Origin: a virus
Virus record (IMG/VR): IMGVR_UViG_3300010379_000026
Span: 1-33,339 of that record
Strand: one strand, 5' to 3'
Length of the DNA stretch: 33,339 bases
Part shown: positions 1-33,339 of the stretch, piece after piece
Layout of the letters: each line of letters begins with the position of its first letter
How positions within the stretch are numbered: the stretch's first letter is position 1
Position numbers and translations under genes: made by a program
Notes under the pieces: model-generated
Seen by the model: only the letters and a program-made list of their open reading frames with translations
Databases searched by the model: none
What the model was told of the DNA's origin: nothing

Positions 1-123
1 CCGAACGAACCCTGCCCTTGCGCCGCCCCAGCCGCTTTCTCGGGATTATAGGCCTGTGGATTCCCTTCGCTCTCCGCCAAGGCAATCGCCACGGCTGTGG
101 CGAGATCATCACCAGAGAAGCCA
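1..123. repeat. Terminal direct repeat, left copy (circle junction)
   Basis: These bases are identical to 33217-33339. The lytic transglycosylase frame runs without a break through this repeat and continues at 124-167, so the repeat is best read as the overlap left where a circular sequence was opened, giving a circle of 33216 bp. It is a duplicated stretch of sequence record rather than a functional repeat. Confidence 0.95.
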
Positions 124-4743: not shown

Positions 4744-5817
4744 TCACTGACTCGAAACCGTCACATCCATGGCAGCGGAGGCCTTCACACAAATCCCATT
4801 CAGCAGATTCACATCGAAAACGAAAGTCTGCAGCGTCGCAGCCACCGACGTGATCACTGCCACTGTGTTTGTTGCGGGCGTGCCGGTGCAGCTCGCCAGC
4901 GGCAGATCGAAGACGCTGAAAGTGCCCACCGCCCCCGTGTTCACCGAAACCGTGTGCACATAACCCAAGGTCGCCTTGATGGCCGTAGCTGTCGTGCCAG
5001 TGACGTGCGTGAACTGGTAAGCGCTGGGCGCAAGGCCTGGACTGGCGAATGTGTAATCCAAATTGAATGTGGCCGTGCTCGCACCGCCCGACGTATACGT
5101 CACAATGAAAAAGGGGCAGATACTCGGAGGAACCTGGAAAATTTGCACGAGCGATTGTGTGGTCTGAAGGCTGAATAATTCAGAGCCACCAGGCAGGAAC
5201 GCGCCATTTGCTCCACAGGCAACCTGCAGCGTCGAACCGGCAGGTCCCGCCGCGCCGGTATAAACAAATTGCAGTGTTCCGGAGGAGCTGCCAAACGGAG
5301 AACGCAGCACTGGGGCAACGAGTGAAGCATTGGCCGCAGCCAGTGTGGCGATATTTTTCACCAATTGACCGATCTGACTTGTGCCAGCCGGGACACCTGG
5401 TGTCATCGAAATGCCGGAATATTTCAAGGTGACGTTTGCGGATCCGGGAATGCACGTGTTCACGCGCACCCCGATCACCGGGTAGTATCCGGTTGCAGTG
5501 AGACCGGTGATGCCAGCCGAGTTGACGGTGTACGTCCCGTAGTCGGAGATATCAAAGAAAGTGGCGCCGTCGTAAGAGGCTTGAATCGTGTAAGCGAGAC
5601 TCGTCGGCGCTCCGCCGCTCGGAAGCATGGTGACACTGTGCGCAGCCTGGCCAATGTTCGATATCAAGACCGTGCCCGCCGCAAGTGCAGCCGTGCACGT
5701 CGAATTGCTGAACGGTACTGACGTAGTAGTCTGGGCAGAGGTGTAACCCACGAACTGCGCCTGCGCCAGACCGCCGAGCACCGCCACCAAGAGCACGAAC
5801 TGTAGAAGTCGTTTCAT
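4744..5817 (-). CDS. Secreted beta-rich surface protein
   Basis: The protein has 357 residues with a clear signal peptide (MKRLLQFVLLVAVLGGLAQA, cleavage probably before QFVGYT). The mature part is Thr/Ser/Gly/Ala-rich, predicted all-beta, and contains several Cys residues that could form disulfides. It begins downstream of the FTTVT-type protein, and both signal peptides share the KR(F/L)LQF opening. Its place among virion genes suggests an exported virion surface or attachment protein, which is unusual for a phage because virion proteins of tailed phages are rarely secreted. An AGGAGG site lies 11 bases before the ATG. Confidence 0.82.
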   Translation of the reverse strand: MKRLLQFVLLVAVLGGLAQAQFVGYTSAQTTTSVPFSNSTCTAALAAGTVLISNIGQAAHSVTMLPSGGAPTSLAYTIQASYDGATFFDISDYGTYTVNSAGITGLTATGYYPVIGVRVNTCIPGSANVTLKYSGISMTPGVPAGTSQIGQLVKNIATLAAANASLVAPVLRSPFGSSSGTLQFVYTGAAGPAGSTLQVACGANGAFLPGGSELFSLQTTQSLVQIFQVPPSICPFFIVTYTSGGASTATFNLDYTFASPGLAPSAYQFTHVTGTTATAIKATLGYVHTVSVNTGAVGTFSVFDLPLASCTGTPATNTVAVITSVAATLQTFVFDVNLLNGICVKASAAMDVTVSSQ

Positions 5818-5853: not shown

Positions 5854-6729
5854 TCACATCTGCTCCAGCGTCGGAAAAATCTGCACCGTGGGATTCGGCG
5901 AGCATGACCCGCCCGCAGTGAAGGTCGCCGTGTACTGCACCGCCGTCCCAGGCTTGGCGGTGAACGTGTACATCGGAGTCGTAAGCACGGGCACGAGTCG
6001 GCCCAGGGCGCCGTTCGTGGTGATGGTATACGTGATCTGCGTCGTGCTCGCTGCCGAGGACTCGTTCGGATCCTGATACTTGACCGCAATGGCAACGACA
6101 GGGTTGCCGGCGCAGCTTGCCCCGATCACGGTTTCACTGGCATAGACCTGAAAGCGATAGGTCGTGCCAGTGGCTGGAATCGTCGGCGCGGTGGCCATCG
6201 TTACTGTGAAGTTATTCCCTACCGTCACGATCGTCGCCGCAGGAAGCGTGTTGAAAACCCGCGCCAGATTGACCTTCACCGTCAGTCCGAAGGCTGCCGC
6301 GTTCAATGTGGCGGAGATGTCCTGCGAACTGCCGGAGATGGTGATCGCGGCCGCGGTAAAACAATTGCCCAGGATCGGAGTAGAGATGTCCGCGGTACTC
6401 GGTGCAGAGCAGACCGTGGCCGTCCATTGCGTCGATCCCGGAGTGATCGCAGCGTTGCTCGGCAGGTTCACCGAGAATCGGCCATTGTTATCGAGGCCGA
6501 TGGGACCAATGCTCTGAGCGACCGGCGTAGGTGGCGTGGTGGGCAGAGTCGGCGCCGTCGTGAAGGGTAACGGGCCCAGCGAGAAGGTCACCAGCCCAAA
6601 AGCATAGGGAATGCCGTTCGGATCGTTCACGGTGGCGGTGACCGTCGTGAAGTTCTGCCCAAACGCGCCGACTGGCAAACCGGCCAGCAGCAGCAGAAGC
6701 GAGAATTGCAAAAAGCGTTTCAGACCCAT
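5854..6729 (-). CDS. Secreted protein with FTTVT..DPNG beta domain
   Basis: The protein has 291 residues. A signal peptide (MGLKRFLQFSLLLLLAGLPV, cleavage near GAFGQ) precedes NFTTVTATVNDPNGIPYAFG. The same opening occurs in the secreted protein at 31676-32827 (QFTTVTGTVVDPNGLAYANG), and both continue with ITISGSSQDIS / LTISGTSQNIS, so the two are paralogues over roughly the first 150 residues. This style of secreted beta domain is familiar to me from acidobacterial genomes, which is my main host hint. Function is probably virion surface or host attachment. The start overlaps the upstream 161-residue gene by 10 bases. Confidence 0.85.
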   Translation of the reverse strand: MGLKRFLQFSLLLLLAGLPVGAFGQNFTTVTATVNDPNGIPYAFGLVTFSLGPLPFTTAPTLPTTPPTPVAQSIGPIGLDNNGRFSVNLPSNAAITPGSTQWTATVCSAPSTADISTPILGNCFTAAAITISGSSQDISATLNAAAFGLTVKVNLARVFNTLPAATIVTVGNNFTVTMATAPTIPATGTTYRFQVYASETVIGASCAGNPVVAIAVKYQDPNESSAASTTQITYTITTNGALGRLVPVLTTPMYTFTAKPGTAVQYTATFTAGGSCSPNPTVQIFPTLEQM

Positions 6730-7205
6730 AAATCCTCCGACTCCAGTTCTTTCGGGTAGAGGAAACCCACCAGCCGCCCTCCCGAAAGTTGACCGGCAAC
6801 CACGATGTTCACGTTCTTGACCACAAGTGTGATCACTTGGTTTTCGAAGATTCGGAACCCTGCAATCTCAACCGGGTTTGCTGGCGATCCGAGCGAAGCC
6901 AGAATCAGATCGTAGGTTGTGGCACCAGGCGGAGGCGCACCGTCCACTAGAATCTGCCAAGTCACACCACCTTGACCCTCAACCCATCCGCCGCCGACGA
7001 AGTTGTTTGCGACTTTTTTGATCACACCATTTCGCCCAATCGGGACCTGGAAGCTGATCACGTTGAACTGCGCCCCAATCGCGGGTAGGTTCACATAGTT
7101 GATCAGGTCGAGGTTCTCCCACTGGTCGGGCGGATCAATCCAAACCGGCCGCGTAACCCGCATCGGCGTTGTCGGACTTGCGATGTCGAGATCGTCTTCG
7201 TTCAT
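6720..7205 (-). CDS. Beta-rich virion protein candidate (161 residues)
   Basis: The protein starts MNEDDLDIASPTTPMRVTRP and appears all-beta, with PIGRNGVIKKVANNFVGGGW, a W-containing dGAPPPGATTYDL stretch and the end GGRLVGFLYPKELE. It lies directly after two other beta-rich proteins of the same size and is coupled to the 174-residue gene by a 4-base overlap. A jelly-roll vertex or minor capsid protein is a reasonable inference. I cannot name a family, and a structure prediction would decide it. Confidence 0.8.
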   Translation of the reverse strand: MNEDDLDIASPTTPMRVTRPVWIDPPDQWENLDLINYVNLPAIGAQFNVISFQVPIGRNGVIKKVANNFVGGGWVEGQGGVTWQILVDGAPPPGATTYDLILASLGSPANPVEIAGFRIFENQVITLVVKNVNIVVAGQLSGGRLVGFLYPKELESEDLWV

Positions 7206-7726
7206 GGATTCGTATCACTTCCTGTGAACGGTGCCGCGACGCCATAGAGCACAAGTTGCACTGTATTTGCTGCAGGCTCCAGGTTCTGGAGGATGACCAG
7301 CGCTTGCGAGCGTGGAATGTCGAACCGGTAGGGCTCGCGCAAAAAGAACGGCGAGACCGTATTCCCACCCAGCAGTCCACGCTTAATGCCGCGGTCGCTG
7401 CCAATCCGCCGGCTCTTGGGTTGGCCGCGGTCGTCGATCCAGATGTGCGCAATGTGCGCCCGGAATCCGCCGACTGTCTCCCCTGTAGTGCTCGCGAGGA
7501 TCGCCAGCAAATGGAAGTCGCGCATCAGATCCACTTTCACCTGGATTGTCTGTTGTGCTCCGAGCACTGCATTCACGACTTCCCATCGCGGTTGATAGCC
7601 TTCGAGGCCAGGCGCAACTTCGGCGTACCGGTAGACCCGCCCCGAATCGGCGAAGGGCATCCCCAGCAAGCGCGCGAAGGGGTGCACGAACTCCGCGCGC
7701 AGCAATTTTTGATTCGCCTGTGGCAT
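7202..7726 (-). CDS. Single jelly-roll-like capsid protein candidate (174 residues)
   Basis: The protein contains NAVLGAQQTIQVKVDLMRDF, then IWIDDRGQPKSRRIG, then FFLREPYRFDIPRSQALVIL and the ending NTVQLVLYGVAA. Alternating hydrophobic beta strands with a conserved loop order suggest a single beta barrel. The neighbouring 160-residue protein shows the same pattern (NAVQQPYQLQI, DF, NTVEIAFSG), so the two look like diverged duplicates. Paired single-barrel capsid proteins of 170-300 residues are established for the P23-77 and halosphaerovirus group; membership here is inference only. Confidence 0.82.
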   Translation of the reverse strand: MPQANQKLLRAEFVHPFARLLGMPFADSGRVYRYAEVAPGLEGYQPRWEVVNAVLGAQQTIQVKVDLMRDFHLLAILASTTGETVGGFRAHIAHIWIDDRGQPKSRRIGSDRGIKRGLLGGNTVSPFFLREPYRFDIPRSQALVILQNLEPAANTVQLVLYGVAAPFTGSDTNP

Positions 7727-7738
7727 GGCCCCTTCTTT

Positions 7739-8221
7739 CTACCGTCTCAGACTGGCCGTAGACTGAGAAGCGGTTCCCGCCGCGGGCGTGGCGGTCGCTT
7801 TGTTCCACAGCTTGAAGCCGGAGAATGCGATCTCGACCGTGTTGTTACCACCCGACGTGTCGCTAAATGCCAGCGTGTAGGTGCGCGTCGCCGGCATGAC
7901 GAAGGGCACCGCAATCGGAAACGCTCCGCTGTTCGTGACCAGCCCGGCCCACAGGTCGATGTTGATGCCATTGAATGCAGCCGCGCCTGAGACCGAAGAG
8001 GCAGTTGTACCGACGAACTGCCGGCCAGTCGCCTGCTCGGTCATCAAAACCTTGAGACGTCCGTCTGTGCGCTGGGCCGCGGTCCACCACCACTCGAAAT
8101 CGGCATCGGCTAGGATCTGGAGTTGGTAGGGCTGCTGCACGGCATTCGCCAGCACGACGGCGTCGGCCACGTAGGCAAACCACTGCCGATCAAAATTGTC
8201 GTCAATTTGTGACGGGTCCAT
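7739..8221 (-). CDS. Single jelly-roll-like capsid protein candidate (160 residues)
   Basis: The protein starts MDPSQIDDNFDRQWFAYVAD and has the NAVQQPYQLQILADADFEWW segment and the ending NTVEIAFSGFKLWNK. These align by eye with the 174-residue neighbour. A GAAGGAG site lies close before the ATG at 8221. Together with the 260-, 174- and 161-residue proteins it forms a compact block that I read as the capsid genes. It could instead be a spike base or minor capsid protein. Confidence 0.82.
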   Translation of the reverse strand: MDPSQIDDNFDRQWFAYVADAVVLANAVQQPYQLQILADADFEWWWTAAQRTDGRLKVLMTEQATGRQFVGTTASSVSGAAAFNGINIDLWAGLVTNSGAFPIAVPFVMPATRTYTLAFSDTSGGNNTVEIAFSGFKLWNKATATPAAGTASQSTASLRR

Positions 8222-8356: not shown

Positions 8357-9139
8357 CTACAGCACAGCCCGCATCAGGACGCCTTCGAGGTACACGTGCG
8401 CGTTAATGCCCGTGCCCACGTACTGCGTCGCTGGAGCCGCCGCCAGAGTGGTGAACGCCGCCACACCGGAGATGGTTGGATCGAGCGTGACAAAGAAGTT
8501 CTGTTGCTGCTCGATCAACTGCCCGAGAATCGGGTCCATGGGTGGGAGTCCCGGTACTTGGGGCATATCGTCGGTGATGGTGTTCAGGTTCTGGAGTGAC
8601 GGCCAGCCGTTCGCGCCACTGGTGGCCATCGTGCCACCGCCAGCCAGGGTCTGCGTGGAGAAGTTGCTGGCGAACGAACCTACTCCTGCCGGCCACTTGC
8701 TTACCAGGGCGGTGAAGTAATCCTTCCCGCTGATCTGGAGTTGCGCAAGTGTGGTGCCGATGAACAGGTTCAGGTCCGACGTAGCAATGTCAGAGCGCAC
8801 CACGACGCCGCAGGCTTTCACCAGCAGCTTCTTGGGCGCATCCAGCATTCCTGGCTGCACCAGGTTCGTGTGATACAACGTCTTCACGAACGCGGCGCCA
8901 CCCGCCGGGGTATATGACGCCCCGATGGGCTGTGCGAACAGGCTCTGCTTGGTCACCGCCGTGGCGACTGCTACACCGTAAAAGTCATACACCGGCTGGA
9001 TCAAGTACTCCAATTGGCCGGCGATGATCGGATTTTTGCGCAGCATGTGCAGGCGCGGGCGTCCAACTTCCCGCTCCTCGATTTCGCGGCAGTGAGCAAA
9101 GCGCGATTCATAGCGTGATTGAAATCTCTTATTGACCAT
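8357..9139 (-). CDS. Major capsid protein candidate (260 residues)
   Basis: The protein begins MVNKRFQSRYESRFAHCREI and contains LRKNPIIAGQLEYLIQPVYD. Its middle reads LLVKACGVVVRSDIATSDLN and the end HVYLEGVLMRAVL, with a beta-rich composition throughout. It is the largest of the four beta-rich proteins, stands alone with the widest spacers of the arm on both sides, and has a long purine-rich leader (GGAGG 12 bases before ATG), all consistent with strong expression. The basic N-terminus could be internal or membrane-facing. Alternatives are a spike base or an internal protein. The capsid role is inferred from context. Confidence 0.82.
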   Translation of the reverse strand: MVNKRFQSRYESRFAHCREIEEREVGRPRLHMLRKNPIIAGQLEYLIQPVYDFYGVAVATAVTKQSLFAQPIGASYTPAGGAAFVKTLYHTNLVQPGMLDAPKKLLVKACGVVVRSDIATSDLNLFIGTTLAQLQISGKDYFTALVSKWPAGVGSFASNFSTQTLAGGGTMATSGANGWPSLQNLNTITDDMPQVPGLPPMDPILGQLIEQQQNFFVTLDPTISGVAAFTTLAAAPATQYVGTGINAHVYLEGVLMRAVL

Positions 9140-10749: not shown

Positions 10750-11991
10750 CTAATTGATGATTCCAGCCTCTTCTATGCGATAGTCGCCGCCTTCAAAAAG
10801 CAGGCGCTTCGCGTTGCTGTCGTAAAGCACGATCGGTCGGATTCCGTTTTCCTCACCCAGATCATGGCGCCAATCTTCCATCTCCGGATGTGGCACGTGT
10901 TCCTTGCGCTGCCGGTAGTCGATGCGACGGGCCTCTCCGAGTTCAAAGATGCCCGCGCCGCGATCAAGCGCGCCGAAGACAGCGAGACCACCGCTCACGT
11001 CCTGATCGCCGCCCACGAAATAGAGCTGCCGCGCGGATTCGTCCGAGACGACAGTCACACCGCGCAGATCAATGACCTGTACCTGCCCGCTGGTCCGCGG
11101 CTTCACGTACAGGTTGAGCGCCTTGCCCACCATGGCGTAATCACCCTTGGGCATATGCGGTTCGTTGTGGATGGTCACGCGATCCACTTCACGGCCAACA
11201 AACCTCTCGCGCAGTGCTTCTGCCGAGGGATTCCGGCGCATCGCATCGTTGAACATCGCCGAGAAGTCGCCGCCTTGCGCCGCACGCGCCATGCGCTTCG
11301 CCTGCGCTGGTTTGTAGCCCTGATTAACCAGAGCACTTGCCACTTCCGCGCGCAGTGTGCTCATGGGCTCGCGAGTCCCGGATCGCGTGCCCCGCGATGA
11401 GCGCCCTGCGCGCGAAATCTTGTGCACTCGGCTCTGGAAAAGACTCTGAATCAACCCGGGCGGATGGTAGCTCGCGCCCGCCGCTCGTGCTTGCGCGGAA
11501 CTGTAGTGATCTGGGTTGAGTTGCGCCGGATTGGTGCGGATGGTCACTTCCCCGCCACCGGGAAGCGGAATCTTAATCTCCTGCTGCTTCGGATGAGGAT
11601 TCGCGCCCATCACAATAAGCTCACTCGGATTGCGCGTCACGGGTTCATTGACTACAAACACCAACCAAGAACCGTCAGCTCGTTCGAGCACGTCAACCTT
11701 TCGTCCTGGATATCTGTCTCTCATTTGCTGCGCAAAGGCATAAGCCCGCCCACTTGCGTCTCTACCAGTAAACTTTTTATGCACCTTAGTGGCTGGATTC
11801 TGTTTGTGCCGCTTTGGCGGATTCGTCCGCGGGCTCATCACAATGTAGCGCCAGCCCTGATTCGTCAGCGTGTGTTTGATCCAGGCACCCTTGGTTTTAC
11901 GCTCTTTCGCCACGGCATCTTTCTTGTCCGTGAATGAGCCGTGGAGCATGTAGCCGTAGCCCTGCCCCGCGTTTTTGCGCCGCGTACTCAT
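10750..11991 (-). CDS. Basic multi-domain protein of the RRKNAG type
   Basis: The protein has 413 residues starting MSTRRKNAGQGYGYMLHGSF. The frame is open further upstream, but ATG at 11991 overlaps the stop of the 44-residue paralogous gene as ATGA. The first 50 residues are a small basic module; repeated Arg/Lys-Asn-Pro phrases (PRTNPPK, KQNPATK, RRNPSAE) mark basic linkers; the last 130 residues form a separate alpha-beta domain (QVIDLRGVTVVSDESARQLY). The high charge suggests a DNA-condensing or scaffold-like virion protein. Function is not established. Confidence 0.78.
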   Translation of the reverse strand: MSTRRKNAGQGYGYMLHGSFTDKKDAVAKERKTKGAWIKHTLTNQGWRYIVMSPRTNPPKRHKQNPATKVHKKFTGRDASGRAYAFAQQMRDRYPGRKVDVLERADGSWLVFVVNEPVTRNPSELIVMGANPHPKQQEIKIPLPGGGEVTIRTNPAQLNPDHYSSAQARAAGASYHPPGLIQSLFQSRVHKISRAGRSSRGTRSGTREPMSTLRAEVASALVNQGYKPAQAKRMARAAQGGDFSAMFNDAMRRNPSAEALRERFVGREVDRVTIHNEPHMPKGDYAMVGKALNLYVKPRTSGQVQVIDLRGVTVVSDESARQLYFVGGDQDVSGGLAVFGALDRGAGIFELGEARRIDYRQRKEHVPHPEMEDWRHDLGEENGIRPIVLYDSNAKRLLFEGGDYRIEEAGIIN

Positions 11992-12122
11992 GCTGTTGCT
12001 CTTTTGCGCCGTTGCAATTCCGTCCGGCAACAGGCGATCACAGCGCGGAGGATCTCTGAGGTGATGCCCTCTGCACGTTTCAGCGTAACTATCCAGCCCG
12101 CGTTTTTGCGTCGCTTGCTCAT
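11988..12122 (-). CDS. Tiny basic protein sharing the RRKNAG start
   Basis: The protein has 44 residues, MSKRRKNAGWIVTLKRAEGI onward, rich in Arg and Lys. The opening nearly equals that of the 413-residue protein encoded directly downstream (MSTRRKNAG). Both ends overlap neighbours by ATGA. It could be a duplicated N-terminal module acting as a small DNA-binding or virion-packing protein. Confidence 0.65.
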   Translation of the reverse strand: MSKRRKNAGWIVTLKRAEGITSEILRAVIACCRTELQRRKRATA

Positions 12123-12424
12123 GCTGACTTCGCTTTTGGTATGTCCGGCTGAGGCTTGACCTCTTCGTCGATTGTTTTCCGCACCCACTCCATATCGGGA
12201 GTCTTGAAAAAGTTCCGATCATTCTGGCCCGCACATAATTCTTGTGACACAAAGAGAATTTCGATCAAGCCACCATCTTTGTACTCGCGAACTCGCACGC
12301 TCGGAATCAACCGACGAAAGATGTGCTCGGTAAATTTCTCTGTGACGATCTTGTCGCCAGCGTCACCGAGGTACTGTGCACCTTTAGCTTTCAGGTGCGC
12401 GATGATGGCTTCGAGTCGGGTCAT
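12119..12424 (-). CDS. Hypothetical protein (101 residues)
   Basis: The protein starts MTRLEAIIAHLKAKGAQYLG at ATG 12424, which overlaps the upstream stop as ATGA; the frame extends upstream only as a shadow. It is a small alpha-beta protein with mixed charge (EHIFRRLIPSVRVREYKDGG) and no membrane segment. No family recognised. Its place in the packed virion operon suggests an accessory structural or assembly role. Confidence 0.72.
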   Translation of the reverse strand: MTRLEAIIAHLKAKGAQYLGDAGDKIVTEKFTEHIFRRLIPSVRVREYKDGGLIEILFVSQELCAGQNDRNFFKTPDMEWVRKTIDEEVKPQPDIPKAKSA

Positions 12425-13125
12425 AACAATTTCGGCAACACCACCACTCCCACAATTCCGAGCCCAATCCAAAGCGCGTTGTCCTGCAACCAGGTTGACC
12501 AGTCTTGTCCTGCCGGCGGAGGCGCAGCGCCAGCGCCCGCACCGCTGGGCAGAGACTGCACGACGGTAGATGAAGACACCGGCATCTTTCCCGTCACGGA
12601 ATAGTAGGCATGGTCAACGATTGAGCCTGCATCAGACGGTTGAGCAAAGCCGGAGCCAGTCACCAGAAGCTGCAGGCTCACGGCAAACGAAGTCAATCCG
12701 GCGCTGGCAGCAACGCCCACTTGCGCATTAACGTTCGTGACCTGCAAACCAGATTCGGCAAGAGCCGCACGAACTTTGGATATGATCGTATCGGCGCTCT
12801 GCGTTAAGGTCACAGCCCAGGTGCCCTTGTATGTCAAATAACTGCCTGTCGGCGCTCCTGCTGTTGGCTGTGCTGCTGCTCCTGTCCCTGTTCCAGTTCC
12901 GGCGGGCACCGCATTCCCATTGGCATCTACCCACACCGCGGCGCTCGGATCGCCGCACGCGACCGGGTTACTCTGCGAGTCGTAGGCCTGAACGCATCCT
13001 GAGAATGTGTTGCTGTCGCCCAGACGTCCGAGTCCACCGAGCCGCCCATGCAACCCAGAGAGTGGCCGCGGATTCGTGTACGGCCGCCATCCTTGCTCGG
13101 GCAAAATGTAGTGAACAGTCGGCAT
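12421..13125 (-). CDS. Tail-anchored virion protein candidate with partial Cys motif
   Basis: The protein has 234 residues. An N-terminal Arg/Gly/Pro-rich region precedes CVQAYDSQSNPVACGDPSA, a degenerate copy of the Cys motif found twice in the next protein. The middle is an alpha-beta domain (TWAVTLTQSADTIISKVRAA). A single hydrophobic segment closes the chain (ALWIGLGIVGVVVLPKLL), so the protein should be C-terminally membrane-anchored. It is one of six such proteins in the arm, which I take as virion membrane proteins. Confidence 0.8.
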   Translation of the reverse strand: MPTVHYILPEQGWRPYTNPRPLSGLHGRLGGLGRLGDSNTFSGCVQAYDSQSNPVACGDPSAAVWVDANGNAVPAGTGTGTGAAAQPTAGAPTGSYLTYKGTWAVTLTQSADTIISKVRAALAESGLQVTNVNAQVGVAASAGLTSFAVSLQLLVTGSGFAQPSDAGSIVDHAYYSVTGKMPVSSSTVVQSLPSGAGAGAAPPPAGQDWSTWLQDNALWIGLGIVGVVVLPKLL

Positions 13126-13568
13126 CAGTGCCGTCTCCTCTTTCCGCCGCCGCCCGAAAGCAAAAGCAACGCCGCCGCAGCAATCCCAAACACGGCGATG
13201 TTTGGAATTCCTGAAACCAGCGTGCTATTCGTCAAGAACATGCCTACAGATCCGGGAATCGAAGTACTCAGGGGAACGCTGACCACTGGCGCCGGCCGGC
13301 TTGGCAGAGAAATGCTTGTCGCCGCCTGAACGGTGGCAGGCATGATGCTTTTTTTCGCAGCCGTTGGTCCGGTGCAATCACCATACGTGCATTCCGGATC
13401 GGCGCAAGCAACTGCATTCTCGCTCTGATCGAGACAGAGCGCGCCGCTCGTAACCTGCGGTCCGCTCGCGCCACAGTCGCCGTAGGTGCAGTTTGGATCG
13501 GAGCACGAAATCGTATTCTGATTCTGATCCAAACAGATCGACGATTGTCCCAGCATCACTCGACTCAT
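13125..13568 (-). CDS. Tail-anchored protein with duplicated Cys motif
   Basis: The protein has 147 residues. Two copies of a 22-residue motif are visible: CLDQNQNTISCSDPNC..GDC and CLDQSENAVACADPEC..GDC. A Pro/Ser linker leads to a C-terminal hydrophobic segment (IAVFGIAAAALLLLSGGGG) closed by KRRRH, a positive stop-transfer end. The cysteines may form disulfides or bind metal outside the membrane. Start ATG 13568 overlaps the upstream stop by ATGA. I know no named family with this motif. Confidence 0.8.
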   Translation of the reverse strand: MSRVMLGQSSICLDQNQNTISCSDPNCTYGDCGASGPQVTSGALCLDQSENAVACADPECTYGDCTGPTAAKKSIMPATVQAATSISLPSRPAPVVSVPLSTSIPGSVGMFLTNSTLVSGIPNIAVFGIAAAALLLLSGGGGKRRRH

Positions 13569-14539
13569 CGCAGCACCAAAAATGCACCAATCGCAAGTAA
13601 CGCGATCGGCAACAAACTGCTTCCGCTACTTCCACCGGTCAGGGCGGACAGAATGCTCGCAGCACTGCCAGCGATTGAGGCAGGGCTGTAGGTGAGCGAA
13701 TAACCGGCGCGCTGCTTAACTCCGTACTTGGAACTGAAGACCGTAGGGACCTGCATTGTTCCGCCGCCCGCCTGAAACACCGCAACTGCCGCTTGTATGG
13801 CAGGGTACACATCCATGCAGCCAACGCAGCAACCTGCGGTGCATGATTTCCCGCACTGATTATGCGTCGCTTGTTTCGCGGCGAGAATCGAGCAAGTTGC
13901 GCCACCGCCAGAAGCATCTGCTTCGCCCGCTCCATGGGTATAGGGTGCCACGGCTTGCCACCAAGTGGCATAGAGCGCTTGGCACTGCTGCGCGGCTGTC
14001 GCGGGATCGAGAGCTTGTGTGGAATCGGAAGCGTTGGCCGCGCTAAAGATCGCTTTCAGGCTTTGATCGAAGGCAATTACCGCTGAATTGACGATCTGAT
14101 TTTCTGCCTTAGCTCCAGCCACGCGGGCATTGTGCGCTGACCAAAAACCAGTGATCAGTGAAGCAACACCAGCAATCACGGCACCGACCGGACCGCCAGA
14201 AGCGAAACCTTTGAAGGAAGCAGAGATCGATCCGCCGATAATACTCACAGTGCCTTGTGCTTTGCTGCTCTGTGCCGCTATCTGACTGCCTGTCTGGATG
14301 GCGCTCGTAGCGACACCCTGCCCCAATGCGCCCAGTCTTTCCGCCCCGAGTTGGTAGAGCGGAACTCTCGGCGCGACGATGAAATTTCCAAAGCGCCGCT
14401 GATGGCGGACCGGAGCATAGCCCTGCAGGTAGAGCGGATGTTCTCGCAGCAGAATTGTGTAACGGCCGCTCCCCTCAACCTGCTCCACCTGTTCGGTGTA
14501 GCGCCGCCAGCCGGGCACCGGAATGGATGCTGTGCTCAT
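13565..14539 (-). CDS. Large glycine-rich membrane-associated virion protein candidate
   Basis: The protein has 324 residues. After a soluble N-terminus it shows a long Gly/Ala/Ser-rich hydrophobic stretch (ASGGPVGAVIAGVASLITGF), then a helical domain, a dense Cys cluster (CGKSCTAGCCVGCMD, C-x3-C-x3-CC-x2-C) and a C-terminal hydrophobic anchor (LLPIALLAIGAFLVLR). The mid-chain stretch recalls membrane-penetrating proteins, and the Cys cluster suggests metal binding or disulfides. Role in membrane interaction during entry is inference. Confidence 0.8.
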   Translation of the reverse strand: MSTASIPVPGWRRYTEQVEQVEGSGRYTILLREHPLYLQGYAPVRHQRRFGNFIVAPRVPLYQLGAERLGALGQGVATSAIQTGSQIAAQSSKAQGTVSIIGGSISASFKGFASGGPVGAVIAGVASLITGFWSAHNARVAGAKAENQIVNSAVIAFDQSLKAIFSAANASDSTQALDPATAAQQCQALYATWWQAVAPYTHGAGEADASGGGATCSILAAKQATHNQCGKSCTAGCCVGCMDVYPAIQAAVAVFQAGGGTMQVPTVFSSKYGVKQRAGYSLTYSPASIAGSAASILSALTGGSSGSSLLPIALLAIGAFLVLR

Positions 14540-14715
14540 TGTAAGTTCGTCCCAAAAGCAACCTTAATTGTCAACGGCGCGAACGTCACCGTGAAAAGTT
14601 CCTTACAATTCTCACACTTGTAAGTAGTCGAAGCTGCACCACCCTCTTCTTCGTTGATTACATGGGTGAGCGCCCGATGCGTGCACACGTTCGGAGCTGG
14701 TATCGCTGCGCTCAT
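14536..14715 (-). CDS. Tiny zinc-ribbon-like protein
   Basis: The protein has 59 residues starting MSAAIPAPNVCTHRALTHVI. A C.H pair early and CENCKELF later make a plausible zinc site (Cys, His, CxxC). The start at 14715 and stop at 14536 both overlap neighbours by ATGA. Function is unknown. It lies between two tail-anchored proteins. Confidence 0.72.
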   Translation of the reverse strand: MSAAIPAPNVCTHRALTHVINEEEGGAASTTYKCENCKELFTVTFAPLTIKVAFGTNLQ

Positions 14716-15248
14716 CGCTTGCCCTTCATCAAAAAGAAAGCCCCGACCGCCGCGGCGAGGAGACCCCAATTTGGAATCCCGTTGATCAGCGTCTGCTCCG
14801 TGAACCAATCCATGATGCTCGGCGACGCCACGGTTGTACTTGCTCCTGAACTGTCAAGCGTTGTACCCGGCTGCGACAGACTGAGCGAAGTTGGCGTAGC
14901 CACGACTGGCGCCGGCGCCGGTGAAATTGTGGAGGGTTCAGTTTCCGAAACGATTTGACTGCCGCCACTCGACGGCGGAGGCTGCGTAACTGTCGAGGTC
15001 GCACCCGGAGAGTTTTGCAGAGGCAGCGCCCGCGGTAGCAGGCTCAAAAGGGGAAAAGAGGCAGGAGGAGAACTACCCCAGCGCGTGATCGGCGCCGGCC
15101 CTTCGCAGCCCCAGGCTGGACATTCGCGCATCGTCGCGAGAACACCAGACTCTGGCGCCACCGCTCCCAGCGAAATGACATTCTGCTCGCCCGATGCCGT
15201 AGCCCGTGGCTCCGGTTCTGCCGACGAACGATAAACGTAGCGGTTCAT
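14712..15248 (-). CDS. Pro/Ser/Thr-rich tail-anchored protein
   Basis: The protein has 178 residues. A low-complexity Pro/Ser/Thr region (about residues 70-140) works as a stalk. The C-terminus reads INGIPNWGLLAAAVGAFFLM and ends KGKR, one membrane segment with a positive end. The phrase GIPN followed by a hydrophobic helix is shared with the duplicated-Cys protein (SGIPNIAVFGIAAAA), suggesting a common anchor module. Probably a virion membrane protein. Confidence 0.78.
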   Translation of the reverse strand: MNRYVYRSSAEPEPRATASGEQNVISLGAVAPESGVLATMRECPAWGCEGPAPITRWGSSPPASFPLLSLLPRALPLQNSPGATSTVTQPPPSSGGSQIVSETEPSTISPAPAPVVATPTSLSLSQPGTTLDSSGASTTVASPSIMDWFTEQTLINGIPNWGLLAAAVGAFFLMKGKR

Positions 15249-16150
15249 CGCTTGGCCACCGCTAAGACCACCGCCCCAACGAGAATCCAGGGCAAGAGTG
15301 TGCTGAACAGCGAACTGCTGGCACCGGTTAAACTGTAACCAGTTGTGGATATCCCATAACCGGGAGTGTTGGGCGTCGCAAAGGAAGCGTAGGGGCTTCC
15401 CGTGGAAACCGTCGCACCAGTGGTCTTGACCGATGTCGGCTGACCCTCAGCCACGGCGATAATCTGCGGTGTTTCCACCAGGGCAGTTTGGGCGATTTGA
15501 TTCCAGTCGATACTGCTCCCATCGTCTTGACCAAGTCCGCGCAACCGTGCATAACCGGCGAGCCCGCCGATGCGCGTGCAGCCGTTCAAGTCCTGGTAGC
15601 TGTCATCGATCAGCGACCAGGCGCGTTTGCGGAAGTACATCGCCGGCGCGAGGCCGAACTGGGAACCCGGGCGCGCGGCGTCGAGTGCCACCCACGCGCC
15701 CGATCCCGGGGGAACCTCAACTTCCAGGTACACGTGCGAAAACTCATCCGGTGCATCCGGATTTGCGCTCACCGTCACCAGTTGCGCGGGATACCCATCG
15801 GCGATCGCCAGCGCGGCGAGCAGCATGGAAATATCGTCGCAGTCGCCAGCGCGGATTTTCAGGAGTTCTTGGGGAGGGTAGAGCTTCTCTTTGGTGACGG
15901 GGTCCTTCGTGAAGCGGATGTTTTGCTGTACCCAGGCGAAGAGGGCGAAAACTTCACCTGCCTCATCATGCGCGGGCACGCTGCGCACCAGGTCGATCGC
16001 GAAGCGGATGAACTGCGGATCGTGCAAGGCCTGATCAATCAGGCGTCGCATGAGTCGAACTGTCTGCGCTGTGCCCCGTTCACCGTCCAGTAATGGGACG
16101 CGATAGCCTAAAAAACTCCCGGATTGAGCACTTGGAACCGAAACACGCAC
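15245..16150 (-). CDS. Transglutaminase-like protein with C-terminal membrane anchor
   Basis: The protein has 301 residues. The transglutaminase-like (papain-fold) core is clear: LLKIRAGDCDDISMLLAALA with Cys104, then FSHVYLEV with His139, then WVALDAA with Asp157, the expected triad in order. A flexible Gly/Ser/Thr linker leads to a C-terminal hydrophobic segment (LLPWILVGAVVLAVAKR). It may cross-link, hydrolyse or process virion or cell-envelope proteins at a membrane. It is the first gene of the minus arm. The start is GTG at 16150 with GGAG 9 bases upstream; no other good start precedes the catalytic domain. Confidence 0.88.
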   Translation of the reverse strand: MRVSVPSAQSGSFLGYRVPLLDGERGTAQTVRLMRRLIDQALHDPQFIRFAIDLVRSVPAHDEAGEVFALFAWVQQNIRFTKDPVTKEKLYPPQELLKIRAGDCDDISMLLAALAIADGYPAQLVTVSANPDAPDEFSHVYLEVEVPPGSGAWVALDAARPGSQFGLAPAMYFRKRAWSLIDDSYQDLNGCTRIGGLAGYARLRGLGQDDGSSIDWNQIAQTALVETPQIIAVAEGQPTSVKTTGATVSTGSPYASFATPNTPGYGISTTGYSLTGASSSLFSTLLPWILVGAVVLAVAKR

Positions 16151-24492: not shown

Positions 24493-25442
24493 ACAAGACT
24501 TCAATCGAATGGACGCACAGACCTGAGACGCGAGGCGCGGCGGGCGGGATGACCTGGAATCCGATCAGGGCCAGACTTAAGGGCGCATCCTCCAAGGCGC
24601 GCTCAGGCACGTTCTGTACCAGGATCAGCCCAGGCTGCCAGCACTGCTACGCCTCAACTATCAACAAGCGCTTCGGCAACGGGCTGGAATTCACCGTGCC
24701 CAACCTGGAGAAGATCTCCTTCTTTATGGACGAGCGCATCCTGCAGGAGCCGCTGCAACAGAAGAAGTCGTGCACCATCTTTGTGGGAGATATGTTCGAT
24801 CTCTGGCACGAGGCCATCCCGATCGAGTTCATAAAGCAGGTCTGGGACGTGATGCGTCGCGCGGACTGGCACACGTTCCAAGTTCTAACGAAGCGCGCCC
24901 AGCGCATGCATGATGAGTTGCACTGCAAATTTCCAATCTGGAATATCTGGCTGGGCGTCTCCATCGAAGACCAGCAGCGCCACGATGAACGCGCACCGCT
25001 CCTACAGGACACGCCTGCGACTGTGCGCTTCCTCAGCATCGAACCGCAGCTTGAGAATATCTGCTTGGCTATCGACACGCCGGAAGTGGGTGAAATCTCT
25101 ACCCTGCGAGGTTTTGATGGTTGTGGTTGCGACCCGCCGATTCCAGGCATCGACTGGGTGATCTGTGGCGGCGAATCTGGTCCCGGCGCCCGCCCATTCA
25201 ATCTCGCCTGGGCGGAATCGCTGCTCGCTCAGTGTCGGGCTGCTGGCGTCCCGTTCTTTATGAAGCAGACAGGCAGCCGGCCACAGGTACATTCTTGCCG
25301 AGACGAAAGCTGCACGCACCCCGATTGCGGAATGGAGGACATTCGCCAGCATGACCGCAAGGGCGGAGATCCCGCCGAGTGGCCCGAGCACCTGCGCGTG
25401 CGCGAGTTCCCTAGCCAGAAAGTCAACAGCGTGAGCGCATGA
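24489..25442 (+). CDS. Phage Gp37/Gp68 (DUF5131) family protein
   Basis: The protein has 317 residues from ATG 24489; a longer upstream frame overlaps another gene. TSIEWTHRPETRG..GMTWNP, the three-Cys stretch FCTRISPGCQHCYAS (Cys43, 50, 53), NIWLGVSIEDQQR, LSIEPQL and WVICGGESGPGARPF are the conserved blocks of PF07505. The family is common in phages and some bacterial loci and has no settled biochemical role; the C-x6-C-x2-C stretch suggests a metal or Fe-S site. It overlaps the HerA-like ATPase gene by 4 bases. Confidence 0.92.
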   Translation: MNKTSIEWTHRPETRGAAGGMTWNPIRARLKGASSKARSGTFCTRISPGCQHCYASTINKRFGNGLEFTVPNLEKISFFMDERILQEPLQQKKSCTIFVGDMFDLWHEAIPIEFIKQVWDVMRRADWHTFQVLTKRAQRMHDELHCKFPIWNIWLGVSIEDQQRHDERAPLLQDTPATVRFLSIEPQLENICLAIDTPEVGEISTLRGFDGCGCDPPIPGIDWVICGGESGPGARPFNLAWAESLLAQCRAAGVPFFMKQTGSRPQVHSCRDESCTHPDCGMEDIRQHDRKGGDPAEWPEHLRVREFPSQKVNSVSA

Positions 25443-27238
25443 GCAAGATCACCATCGGCGACGCAGCCGGCAAGCCGCTCAAGATTGACCTGGACTTGCT
25501 CATCCCGAGCCGCCTCCTCATTCAGGCCAACTCGGGAGGCGGAAAGTCTTGGTTGCTGCGTCGCCTAGCCGAGCAGTTCTGCGGCCACGTGCAGACCATC
25601 ATCGTGGATCCGGAAGGTGAGTTTTATACCCTCCGCGAGAAGTTCCCTTACGTGCTGGTAGGCGAAGGCGGAGAGACGCCCTGCGATATCCGCTCAGCCG
25701 TGATGCTCGCCGAGCGCTTTCTCCAGCTGAAAGCCTCTGCGATCTGTGACCTGTATGAAGCCTTCCGCTCCCGACCGATGGACCGCCGGCAGTGGGTCCG
25801 GCAATTCTTAAACGCGCTTCTGGATGCGCCGCGCTCGCTCTGGCATCCCCTTGTCGTGATCGTGGACGAGGCACACAAATTCTGCCCGCAAGAGACCCCG
25901 AAAGCCGCAAGTATGATCGAGCGCGAAATCATTGGCGGGTGCAAGGAAGCCATGATCGGGCTTTCCACGACCGGTCGCAAGCGTGGATTCTGCCCGATCT
26001 GGGCCACGCAGCGCCTGGCGAAGCTGGACAAAGACGCAAGCGCTGAGTTTTTCAATCGCCTGGTGGGCATGACGATCGAAGACGTGGACGTGGACCGCGC
26101 CGCGGACCTGATGAGTGTATCGCGCGAAGACAAGCAAGATTTCCGCACGTCGCTCCGGATGTTGAACCCCGGTCAGTTCTACGCCTTCGGCCGCGCCATC
26201 ACCACCGAGCGAACCCTCGTGATGGTGGGTGATGTGCAAACCAAGCACCCGGAGAGCGGAAAGGCCGCAAAGAATGAAACAGCCCCGCCCATGCCGGCAG
26301 AAGTCGCGAAGTTCCTGCCCCAACTCTCCGACCTGCCCAAAGAGGCGGAGAACAAAGCGCGCAGCATCGCCGACCTGGAAAAGACGGTGCGCGATCTACG
26401 TAAAGAATTGAAGGCTAGTCAGACCGGAATAAAAACTATTCCAACCACGGCAACCAAGGTTATGGCTGATCCGCGGGCGCTCGTCGAGCGCGCCGTGAAA
26501 ACAGCAACAGAGCCACTGCTAAAGCAACTCACGAACCTAAAGCAGCGCCTTAATCGCCTCATCGGGAAAGCAATTGGCGACCTCGTTACCGTGGGAAATA
26601 CTTTACAGGTCGGACTGCAGGAGATCGGCGAAATTCCCATAGCCACAAATGTTGCTATCACGACACCACGCGATCTGCCACCCGTGCCCGCGACACCGCC
26701 GCGCCGCCCGACGGCGTTAGTTTCGCCAGACCTTTTCACGCCAAAGAATGGCGACGCCGACGTGAGTCGCGCCGAGTTGCGCATCGTGAACCGGTTGGCG
26801 GAATTGATCGCCTGCACAGGCAGTGAAAATATCCGCAAAGAGCAGCTCGCCGCATGGTCCGAGTTGGCGCCGACTTCTGGCGGATACCGGAATTATCTCG
26901 GAGCGCTGCGCACCGCCGGCCTAATCCACTATCCACAGCCAGGACTTGTCGCGCTCACCAATGCCGGACGAGCTGCGGCACAGCCAGGCGACATGCCTAC
27001 CACATCCCGAGAGATGCTCGAACGTGCCAAGCGAGTGCTTGGAGGTACAGAGGCGCGCATGCTGGACGAGTTGCACCGAAGTCGCGATGCAATGGAAAAG
27101 GATTTTCTGGCAAATCAGATCGGGCTCGAGCCCACCTCTGGCGGATTCCGTAACTATCTCGGAAGAATGCGCACGCTGGGATTCGTGGAGTACCCGCAGC
27201 CCGGCCAGGTGAAGTGCGCGGATTGGCTCTTTCTATGA
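25439..27238 (+). CDS. HerA/FtsK-type ATPase with tandem winged-helix tail
   Basis: The protein has 599 residues. Walker A is QANSGGGKSW (29-38), Walker B LVVIVDEAHKF (138-148), and ST(T)GRKRGFCPIWATQR (about 175-192) is the conserved HerA-type arginine/sensor block. A coiled-coil linker (about 300-390) leads to two repeats of a winged-helix-like module, each with PTSGG(Y/F)RNYLG followed by YPQPG. HerA/FtsK ATPases translocate DNA; in tailless viruses related ATPases package the genome into the capsid. This is one of two candidates here. The tandem tail may bind DNA sites. Confidence 0.9.
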   Translation: MSKITIGDAAGKPLKIDLDLLIPSRLLIQANSGGGKSWLLRRLAEQFCGHVQTIIVDPEGEFYTLREKFPYVLVGEGGETPCDIRSAVMLAERFLQLKASAICDLYEAFRSRPMDRRQWVRQFLNALLDAPRSLWHPLVVIVDEAHKFCPQETPKAASMIEREIIGGCKEAMIGLSTTGRKRGFCPIWATQRLAKLDKDASAEFFNRLVGMTIEDVDVDRAADLMSVSREDKQDFRTSLRMLNPGQFYAFGRAITTERTLVMVGDVQTKHPESGKAAKNETAPPMPAEVAKFLPQLSDLPKEAENKARSIADLEKTVRDLRKELKASQTGIKTIPTTATKVMADPRALVERAVKTATEPLLKQLTNLKQRLNRLIGKAIGDLVTVGNTLQVGLQEIGEIPIATNVAITTPRDLPPVPATPPRRPTALVSPDLFTPKNGDADVSRAELRIVNRLAELIACTGSENIRKEQLAAWSELAPTSGGYRNYLGALRTAGLIHYPQPGLVALTNAGRAAAQPGDMPTTSREMLERAKRVLGGTEARMLDELHRSRDAMEKDFLANQIGLEPTSGGFRNYLGRMRTLGFVEYPQPGQVKCADWLFL

Positions 27239-29993: not shown

Positions 29994-30386
29994 ATGGGAA
30001 TATCAGCTTACGAAGAGTTTCTCCGGTCCAAGATGGTCACGGCGCCAGAGCGCGGCATTGCAATCGAGGCCAGCGCTATCAATCCACTTCTGAAGCCTCA
30101 CCAGGCCGGCACCGTCCGCTGGGCAGTGCACCGCGGTTGCGCCGGCATCTTCGAAGCCTTTGGACTCGGAAAGACCTTCATTCAGCTTGAAATCGCTCGG
30201 TTGATTCGCCAGCACATGGGCCGAGGCCTTGGAGTTGAACTCTCGCCACAATATTTTCGGGATGCGTGCTTTTACTGCGAAGCGATGGAACGCCAGATGG
30301 CCACACCAAACCTCTTTGATCTTTTAGGAGACGACCTTGCCGATCCTGCCCCTGTGGTGTCAGACCAGACCGTGGAGGCTTCGTGA
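29994..30386 (+). pseudogene. Collapsed helicase-methyltransferase fusion, internal deletion
   Basis: The 130-residue frame starts like an SNF2-type phage helicase: LLKPHQAGTVRWAVHRGCAG then IFEAFGLGKTFIQLEIARL, with Walker A (FGLGKT, 56-61). Right after it the sequence switches to GRGLGVELSPQYFRDACFYC, which resembles the final motif of the DNA methyltransferase domain fused to the end of such helicases. The helicase motor and methylase core (several hundred residues) are missing. The frame is intact, so a short protein may still be made. Whether it has a function is unknown. Confidence 0.7.
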
Positions 30387-31447
30387 TCCCCCTCGGCTTC
30401 GAGATCGGATCAGGTGCCCAAGTCCGGATCCCCGCGGGCCACATGGTAATTGTCGGGCAAACGCAAAGAGCCGGAAAGACAACTGCCCTGGAGGCCTGTG
30501 CCGTCCGCTCCGGAATGAAGTGCGTCGCCTTCCTCACCAAGCGCGGTGAGGGTGCCTTCCGTTTCGCGCATGAGCTCCAGCCCTACTACGAAGATCACAT
30601 TGACTGGCGAACCGTGCGCTCGCTCTGCGAAGCGCTCACCGAAGAGAAGTGGGACAAGTTCCAGCGCCAGTGCTTGCGCTCGGTGTGCCGTGCTGGGCAG
30701 TCCGGCCGTGGCAAGAGTTTCGTCGAGTGGCCCAAGCCAGAAACGATTGACGATGTTTTGAAGAATATCGGCCTGGCGCTCACCAAGGCCAGTGGCCAGC
30801 GCGAGTTGATCTTTGGCGAGATCCAGGACGATCTCCAGACCGCGATCGAGGAAATCGCCAAGCTGAAGACTCGGTCCGGCTCGATTGAACTGGAACGCGG
30901 CTTGAACGTGATCGACCTGGAGCGCTACGAGTTCCACATCAAATCACTGATCATCCGCTCGGTGATTCGCTGGGTGCACCAGCAGGGCGAAAAAACGGTC
31001 GTTGCACTGCCAGAGGCTTGGATGTTTGCACCGGCACAGCGCCGCTCACCCGTGCGCGACGCCGCGGAGGAGTACATTCGCCAGGGCGCCGCGCTCGAAA
31101 ACTTCCTCTGGATTGACTCGCAAAACATTTCCGGGATCAGTGCTGTGCTGCTGAGTCAGATTCGGGTGTGGCTCTTTGGCGTGCAGCGCCTCCGGTCGGA
31201 GATTGAAAAAACACTCGACGCCATCCCGGACAACATCTATCCCCGACCGCGCGCGGCCGACATCGCCACGCTGGGCAAGGGAGAATTCATCGCCTGCTTC
31301 GATCAGGAGATGTACCACACCTACGTGCAGCCGGCATGGATGACCTCGGCGGTGCACGCTCAGGCAATCGCCCGTGGCGAAGAATCAGTAGACAGCGCGC
31401 GGGAGATTGTGCGAGAGTTCGACCAAGAGCATGAGCACTCCGAATAA
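30383..31447 (+). CDS. Second FtsK/HerA-like ATPase with altered Walker B
   Basis: The protein has 354 residues from GTG 30383, which overlaps the previous stop by GTGA. Walker A is VGQTQRAGKTTA (24-35). The position expected for Walker B reads KTVVALPEAWMF (204-215), with Pro where the usual Asp stands and the catalytic Glu kept. FLWIDSQNISGISAVLLSQI (241-260) corresponds to the sensor segment with Gln. Size and motif order fit packaging ATPases of tailless viruses better than the longer HerA-like protein does. It sits near the end of the plus arm, as late genes might. Confidence 0.85.
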   Translation: MIPLGFEIGSGAQVRIPAGHMVIVGQTQRAGKTTALEACAVRSGMKCVAFLTKRGEGAFRFAHELQPYYEDHIDWRTVRSLCEALTEEKWDKFQRQCLRSVCRAGQSGRGKSFVEWPKPETIDDVLKNIGLALTKASGQRELIFGEIQDDLQTAIEEIAKLKTRSGSIELERGLNVIDLERYEFHIKSLIIRSVIRWVHQQGEKTVVALPEAWMFAPAQRRSPVRDAAEEYIRQGAALENFLWIDSQNISGISAVLLSQIRVWLFGVQRLRSEIEKTLDAIPDNIYPRPRAADIATLGKGEFIACFDQEMYHTYVQPAWMTSAVHAQAIARGEESVDSAREIVREFDQEHEHSE

Positions 31448-32879: not shown

Positions 32880-33339
32880 CTATCCGTTGAAAACCCGCAT
32901 CAGAAGCCAAAGCGCAAGCGCCCCGCCCGCCATCAGCAACACAAGCTGCCCTGTATCTGGTGCAATCATCGGCGCACTTTGATCACTCGTGCTCATATCG
33001 GCCGGGGTCACATCCGGCGCGGATGTGCTCGCATTCAAAAAACTCGTGACTGCACCCATGTACGTCAGGTAGGCGTGGTTAGTGTAAGTAGCCCAGGGGC
33101 GAAATGAGTTACCGGCACCGGAGTAGATCGCGAAAGCTGCTCCCGCATTCGTCTGCGGATCGAGCAGGTCGAGCGCTGAAAATTCGGGATGCTTGCTCAG
33201 ATAGATTTGCCACAAACCGAACGAACCCTGCCCTTGCGCCGCCCCAGCCGCTTTCTCGGGATTATAGGCCTGTGGATTCCCTTCGCTCTCCGCCAAGGCA
33301 ATCGCCACGGCTGTGGCGAGATCATCACCAGAGAAGCCA
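32880..33339 (-). CDS. Lytic transglycosylase with C-terminal membrane anchor, 3' part
   Basis: Joined to 124-167 this gives 167 residues. ALAESEGNPQAYNPEKAAGA and then QGSFGLWQIYLS match the SLT core (catalytic Glu, then GL.QI). NAGAAFAIYSG is the third conserved block. The C-terminus is a single hydrophobic helix (LVLLMAGGALALWLLMRVF). A short transglycosylase fixed to a membrane fits a virion enzyme that opens the cell wall during entry, as known for P7 of phage PRD1; that role is inferred. It lies 28 bases before the first codon of the last secreted protein. Confidence 0.88.
   Translation of the reverse strand, partial: GFSGDDLATAVAIALAESEGNPQAYNPEKAAGAAQGQGSFGLWQIYLSKHPEFSALDLLDPQTNAGAAFAIYSGAGNSFRPWATYTNHAYLTYMGAVTSFLNASTSAPDVTPADMSTSDQSAPMIAPDTGQLVLLMAGGALALWLLMRVFNG
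33217..33339. repeat. Terminal direct repeat, right copy (circle junction)
   Basis: Identical to bases 1-123; it is the same stretch of the circular genome shown twice. Confidence 0.95.

Follow-up and report, generated by a model that had tools for sequence, protein, structure and literature searches.

The isolated phage SSIP-1 has an internal membrane; its double-stranded DNA (dsDNA) is circular, its capsid has T=49, and there are two types of major capsid protein (MCP) (PMC6260650, PMC6356626, PMC5332951). Its genome has been reported to have hardly any similarity to database sequences (PMC6356626). Known or inferred virion membrane proteins are P3 and P8 of PM2 and VP10 and VP13 of SH1 (PMC6414509, PMC6356626). 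In HCIV-1, VP10 and VP13 are reported to have C-terminal transmembrane helices and have been proposed to lie under the capsomers and the penton, respectively (PMC6414509), and P3 and P6 of PM2 have been proposed to act as capsomer templates on the membrane (PMC6356626). Here the virus record IMGVR_UViG_3300010379_000026 (33,339 nucleotides, at its full length called the window) is compared with these systems. The subject is a run of neighbouring genes coding for a transglutaminase-like (TGase) protein and for proteins of 178, 324, 147 and 234 amino acids, together with a separate gene for a lytic transglycosylase (LT; Table 1). With a probability of roughly three in four, the window is the complete genome of a dsDNA phage that has no tail, is probably icosahedral and encloses a lipid membrane, that belongs to a soil lineage with a distant relationship to SSIP-1, and whose single-pass C-tail-anchored virion-membrane proteins include the five proteins and the LT. 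A lipid-containing particle as such is very probable.

A conserved run of C-terminal hydrophobic helices

The original prediction was of one hydrophobic helix at the end of each of these five proteins and of the LT. Helices were called by hydropathy only, as a hydrophobic segment within 15 amino acids of the C-terminus at a cut of 1.4, and exactly these six proteins were recovered among the 54 genes of the window. Their tails are ...LLPWILVGAVVLAVAKR for the TGase, ...GIPNWGLLAAAVGAFFLMKGKR for the 178-residue, ...LLPIALLAIGAFLVLR for the 324-residue, ...GIPNIAVFGIAAAALLLLSGGGGKRRRH for the 147-residue and ...NALWIGLGIVGVVVLPKLL for the 234-residue protein, and ...GQLVLLMAGGALALWLLMRVFNG for the LT. 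The helix of the 178-residue protein is the weakest of the six, with best Kyte-Doolittle (KD) values of 1.41 (KD-19) and 1.65 (KD-17). The 324-residue protein has a second, borderline hydrophobic segment at residues 237-255.

Six anchored proteins are barely more than expected by chance, as composition shuffles yielded a mean of 2.9 (P=116/2000, 0.058) and the same test called 11 of 162 shadow open reading frames (ORFs) anchored. The raw count was consequently discarded as evidence. The arrangement of the genes had been described as a row. Clustering was found, with five anchored proteins in six consecutive genes (permutation P=0.0008), and what did not hold is the unbroken row, which is interrupted by a small ORF without a helix. 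This ORF probably starts internally, leaving 59 amino acids from an internal ATG, and no relatives of it were found at E<0.05.

Conservation was followed in 13 genomes of the lineage, where 54 of the 56 homologues assigned to the families of the run have kept the helix, even as identity to the window proteins drops to 29-40%. The two exceptions score 1.39 and 1.34 and are short of the cut by 0.01 and 0.06. The adjacent capsid module of the same genomes passes the test in only 6 of 83 proteins, and three of these six are extra inserted genes with the same type of tail. The inserted genes are found in distant relatives (L006:15185-16249, L007:19023-19985 and L054:15115-16179) and code for a C-terminal anchor such as SGDWLPIAALVIGGIFLLRGL. 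Five further, more distant genomes have the same pattern of helices in the run. Clustering and conservation are confirmed to be far beyond chance, and it is conservation which is decisive. In the identical hydropathy test anchored proteins amounted to 1 of 52 in lambda and 0 of 42 in HK97, to 3 of 20 in PM2 including P3 and P8, to 6 of 42 in SH1 including VP10 and VP13, to 4 of 16 in FLiP, 4 of 32 in P23-77 and 1 of 31 in PRD1.

The anchors have a common layout. The tip following the helix is net positive in 51 of the 56 homologues, with a mean of +2.2, which bears out the earlier remark that the helices are closed by lysine or arginine; the 15 residues ahead of the helix are positive in 1 of 56. 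An N-terminal helix or signal was seen in none of the 56. In the 178- and 147-residue families the helix starts with (G/S)(I/V/M)PN(W), the 234-residue family has the motif W(L/F)xxNAxWIG and the TGase the motif LPW. The 178- and 147-residue families are paralogous over about 80 C-terminal columns (hhalign 98.6) and the remaining families of the run could not be aligned with one another by hhalign. In part, therefore, the scheme reflects the duplication of one domain, and in part a design that recurs on unrelated proteins.

Comparison with SSIP-1 and other membrane-containing viruses

Among 50,697 phage records the best relative of the TGase was gp34 of SSIP-1 (E 5e-9), and comparison with the gp34 profile gave a probability of 98.9 and an E value of 3e-17 over 201 columns. 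The GenBank annotation of gp34 is 'structural protein'. The active-site cysteine and aspartate align in gp34, and the histidine is readable as DHVY where the window has SHVY. The protein has a C-terminal helix of its own, ...LPYLLLGGGILLGGGYLIAQSSK, and its end FFSTQNLPYLLLGGGILLGGGYLIAQSSK resembles the end of the window TGase LFSTLLPWILVGAVVLAVAKR. In the TGase family the catalytic residues are invariant across 13 aligned sequences; the active site is intact, and, at a guess, the enzyme may act on cell-wall or protein cross-links.

The likeness extends to gene order. As in the window, a TGase-like protein with a C-terminal helix leads a run of C-anchored proteins, in SSIP-1 gp34, 35, 36, 39, 41 and 42 ahead of the structural gp43-48. 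Anchored genes make up 11 of 21 in gp34-54 and 3 of 36 elsewhere in SSIP-1 (P=4e-4). Both genomes are circular dsDNA of a similar size class, that of the unclassified SSIP-1 being 43.8 kb, without recognised tail genes. The differences are considerable as well. Homology is detectable for the TGase alone and the other proteins of the run and of the capsid module lack profile similarity. In a search of the window for homologues of the SSIP-1 capsid proteins the best profile match, c160 against gp47, had a probability of 12-14, and none was recognised. SSIP-1 gp43 (2319 amino acids) has no counterpart in the window, the SSIP-1 tails are less consistently basic, and its hypersaline habitat contrasts with the soil metagenomes of the window lineage, the hosts being different, too. 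A scan with gp34 found SSIP-1 itself only and no bridging genome. SSIP-1 is the closest characterised relative of the lineage.

The LT gene lies apart from the run and crosses the terminal-repeat junction, with its 5' end near position 160 once the genome is circularised. The best relatives of the LT are entry lysozymes of tectiviruses, including WheeHeim, Toil and P19, with those of Toil and P19 being annotated 'putative entry lysozyme'. A helix in the C-terminal part is found in the lysozymes of WheeHeim, Toil and P19, in PRD1 P7 and in the lytic protein of FLiP. WheeHeim gp26, Toil gp23 and PRD1 P7 of the Tectiviridae share with the window LT an SLT-type domain and, after it, a single helix in the C-terminal part; in the tectivirus proteins some 20-40 residues follow this helix, whereas the window LT has at most 2 residues beyond it. 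P3 and P8 of PM2 (Corticoviridae) likewise have a single C-terminal helix with a basic tip, and the window tails are very similar to that of P3, GVPQKTLLLGFGGLLVLGLVMRGNK. Both are, however, small structural proteins without enzymatic domains, and homology was undetected (hhalign probability <=5).

A further comparison concerns the Helvetiavirae of the Singelaviria, comprising the Matsushitaviridae (P23-77 and IN93) and the Sphaerolipoviridae (SH1 and HCIV-1). In profile comparison the HerA-type ATPase of the window resembles the packaging ATPases of P23-77, IN93 and SH1 (hhalign 97.9, E 4e-13), and further likenesses are adjacent small candidate capsid proteins of jelly-roll type and the C-anchored VP10 and VP13 of SH1 and HCIV-1. 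With regard to the two single-jelly-roll MCPs that this group encodes in adjacent genes, the window has c174, a jelly roll by AlphaFold2 (AF2), and its homologue c160, both candidate capsid proteins. In contrast to these likenesses, neither sequence nor profile comparison linked the window to VP16/VP17 or VP4/VP7. Only some members of the lineage were found to have HerA, HerA helicases generally share this superfamily, and the lineage has a near-universal second P-loop protein of no known family. The capsid families were also compared by profile with VP16/VP17, VP4/VP7/VP9, P2, P3, the FLiP MCP and SSIP-1 gp44-48, and no similarity emerged; this includes the double-jelly-roll MCPs PRD1 P3, PM2 P2 and that of FLiP, to which c260 had no profile match. 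The lineage sets itself apart by its modular anchor, the membrane-tethered TGase and LT, jelly rolls of its own and two ATPases.

Genome, lineage and capsid-type genes

The two ends of the record carry an exact direct repeat of 123 bp, so that the genome, 33,216 bp in length, is either circular or terminally redundant. Relatives were found in IMG/VR only and amount to 8 via the TGase, 9 via the ATPase and 25 loci via the candidate capsid protein, near-complete contigs being about 32-39 kb long, and the lineage, with at least 25 IMG/VR contigs, is undescribed. The conserved gene order in the relatives is TGase, 178, 324, 147, 234, g500, g223, g184, c260, c160, c174 and c161, with the 324 and 147 types absent or multiplied in some of them. 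No match to the candidate capsid protein, c160, the 178-residue protein or the ATPase was found by tblastn in the 50,697 phage records, nor to the TGase in plasmids, and two scans of genome contigs with the capsid protein and the ATPase revealed no provirus or host. The sources of the contigs and the style of the signal peptides leave the impression of a soil habitat and an acidobacterial host.

An AF2 model with 14 homologues was too poor for a structure search in the case of c260, a family of which 31 sequences with identities as low as about 40% were collected. The Foldseek neighbours of the c174 model are jelly rolls with modest TM-scores, among them nucleoplasmin, VP2 of infectious bursal disease virus (IBDV), the capsid protein of faba bean necrotic stunt virus (FBNSV) and PHM, and with its profile homologue c160 it forms a pair of adjacent jelly-roll-type proteins and candidate capsid components. 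In some relatives the c174 gene is tandemly duplicated (L013:17049-18240). The second P-loop protein has no Pfam or PHROG match; in a branch formed by L007-L009 and L037 it is extended at the C-terminus to 584-638 amino acids, and a search for HerA there found none.

Pfam and PHROGs families in the window are TGase, SLT, glucosaminidase, HerA, ERF, HNH, resolvase, DUF5131 and phage metallopeptidase. The gene set that marks Caudoviricetes (HK97-type capsid, portal, terminase and tail genes) was not found among the best 25 of 61 PHROG families, none of which is a family of portal, tail tube or tape-measure proteins; a terminase label is borne solely by the HerA ATPase and a tail label solely by the glucosaminidase. 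The products of 4744-5817, 5854-6729 and 31676-32827 (all on the minus strand) have signal peptides of the Sec type, with the endings AQA-Q, AFG-Q and AWA-Q. The latter two proteins have a common N-terminal domain, and the versions in relatives are variable and much longer, reaching 1261 amino acids. Such exported adhesin-like proteins are odd beside a capsid assembled in the cytoplasm. The gene at 2874-3554 (minus strand), which adjoins the glucosaminidase gene at 2404-2877, codes for a protein with an N-terminal helix and a weak MCE match (TIGR00996, E 1.2e-4).

Table 1. Positions of the features discussed, numbered along the window
Feature	Position	Strand	Details
Terminal direct repeat, left copy	1..123		Identical to 33217-33339
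c161, 161 amino acids, last of the conserved capsid-type cluster	6720..7205	-	Synteny
c174, 174 amino acids, predicted eight-stranded jelly roll	7202..7726	-	AF2, predicted local distance difference test (pLDDT) 71
c160, 160 amino acids, capsid-type protein	7739..8221	-	hhalign 89.5 over 98 columns to c174
c260, 260 amino acids, most conserved structural-type protein, candidate MCP	8357..9139	-	Conservation
Protein after the anchored run, no helix, syntenic in relatives	10750..12252	-	Gene order
234-residue protein	12421..13125	-	Conserved W(L/F)xxNAxWIG and helix at the last residues
Duplicated-Cys protein, 147 amino acids	13125..13568	-	Two CLDQxxNxxxCxDPxCTYGDC units; GIPN, helix, GGGGKRRRH
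Cys-cluster protein, 324 amino acids	13565..14539	-	Helix 305-323; tip R
Small ORF, CxxC pair, zinc-ribbon-like, no helix, uncertain gene	14536..14808	-	Between the 178- and 324-residue genes
Pro-rich protein, 178 amino acids	14712..15248	-	C-terminal GIPNW, helix, KGKR; conserved in relatives
TGase-like protein, 301 amino acids	15245..16150	-	Cys104-His139-Asp157; helix 281-299; tip KR; PF01841 E 1.1e-11
HerA/FtsK-family ATPase	25439..27238	+	PF01935 E 2.6e-10
Second P-loop protein, possible morphogenesis or packaging ATPase	30383..31447	+	In nearly all relatives covering the locus
LT (SLT)	32880..33339	-	C-terminal helix; PF18896 E 3.7e-20, PF01464

Proposed particle and competing explanations

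We infer that the five proteins and the LT would be made without a signal peptide, their last 20 or so residues inserting post-translationally into the cytoplasmic membrane of the host, and that they would enter the particle as jelly-roll capsid proteins assemble on that patch of membrane. The N-terminal domains (a TGase-like cysteine enzyme, Cys-rich, Pro-rich and SLT) would then be exposed on one side of the membrane, with the short basic tip on the opposite side. By analogy with HCIV-1, an orientation of the N-terminal domains towards the capsid and of the basic tips towards lumen and DNA is favoured. For the TGase and the LT the most likely role is to breach the cell wall when the genome enters with the help of the membrane; for the other anchored proteins it is to link capsid and membrane or to place the capsomers, as suggested for VP10 and VP13 of HCIV-1 and P3 and P6 of PM2. 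The earlier claim, that the proteins share one way of anchoring and that the particle contains lipid, is supported by the homology to SSIP-1 gp34, the phages run as controls and the tectivirus lysozymes; it is not proven by them.

A number of points weigh against this reconstruction. The basic C-terminal tips contradict the N-in topology of tail-anchored proteins, the positive-inside rule predicting the reverse orientation. Only the TGase, with the LT and HerA at superfamily level, ties the lineage to known membrane phages, and the other families of the run and the capsid have no profile similarity to proteins of SSIP-1, P23-77, SH1, PM2, PRD1 or FLiP. In SSIP-1 the anchored run alone is not significant (permutation P=0.10), only the structural half as a whole. 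The candidate MCP c260 was folded only at a pLDDT of 37.6, and HerA also matches phrog_2666, labelled 'terminase large subunit' (E 1.6e-11). Finally, the lineage is known here from genes alone, and C-terminal helices by themselves do not prove localisation in the virion.

This last point leads to the alternative which survives best, although it is unlikely: the anchored proteins might stay in the cytoplasmic membrane of the host, serving as an assembly platform, in lysis or against superinfection, and remain outside the virion. C-terminal helices show membrane targeting only, and membrane phages encode assembly factors, too, as do P10, P17 and P33 of PRD1, which are annotated 'assembly'. Against such a location stand the structural annotation of the SSIP-1 homologue of the TGase, the position of the run directly ahead of capsid-type genes in an order conserved among relatives, and the annotation of the LT homologues of Toil and P19 as putative entry lysozymes.

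A lipid-containing particle with an outer envelope or in the form of a pleomorphic vesicle, rather than an icosahedral one with an internal membrane, is quite improbable. It could be proposed on account of the several proteins of the window exported by signal peptides and of a TGase-like protein in Geoglobus acetivorans pleomorphic virus 1 (L074:4685-5722), a lipid virus of archaea; this protein, however, lacks a C-terminal helix, and the adjacent jelly-roll-type proteins and the packaging-type HerA ATPase favour an icosahedral shell. It is very hard to maintain that the C-termini are cleavable PEP-CTERM or GlyGly-CTERM sorting signals for a host exosortase. The tripartite layout of (I/V)PNW motif, helix and Lys/Arg tip is the same, but no CTERM model matches, the N-terminal signal or helix that such substrates need is missing in all 56 homologues, and the tails of LT and TGase lack the (I/V)PNW motif. 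Sorting of the PEP-CTERM type was rejected for want of a model match and of an N-terminal signal. Least probable of all is that the hydrophobic tails arose by chance in a genome rich in Ala and Leu, belonging to a phage that is tailed or ordinary in some other way. The marginal count of six and the terminase label of HerA could be cited for this. The clustering speaks against the chance part, which near-total conservation of the helix in diverged homologues refutes, and the phage part is opposed by the lack of portal, tail tube and tape-measure families among the best 25 of 61 PHROG families.

Within the preferred reading, an internal-membrane phage with C-tail-anchored virion proteins, a narrower proposal is made tentatively and at clearly less than even odds. 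The layout of (I/V)PN(W) or LPW, a helix of 17-22 residues and a Lys/Arg tip might be a modular tag repeatedly joined to unrelated domains (TGase-like enzyme, transglycosylase, Cys-rich and Pro-rich proteins and the extra inserted genes), acting as a sorting signal for the virion membrane in an undescribed, family-level lineage of tailless internal-membrane soil phages of about 33-39 kb, with a membrane-tethered TGase-like enzyme used at entry among its carriers.

Standard isolation easily misses phages with membranes, owing to their sensitivity to chloroform and their buoyant density (PMC6356626), and recognition from the genome therefore matters. If the interpretation as an internal-membrane phage is true, a lineage from soil, with at least 25 contigs and a TGase-led, C-anchored run like that of SSIP-1, would extend the SSIP-1 morphotype to ordinary soil. 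It would also make it possible to study by comparison how proteins are selected for the virion membrane, and the shared anchor gives a testable prediction of which proteins belong to the particle.

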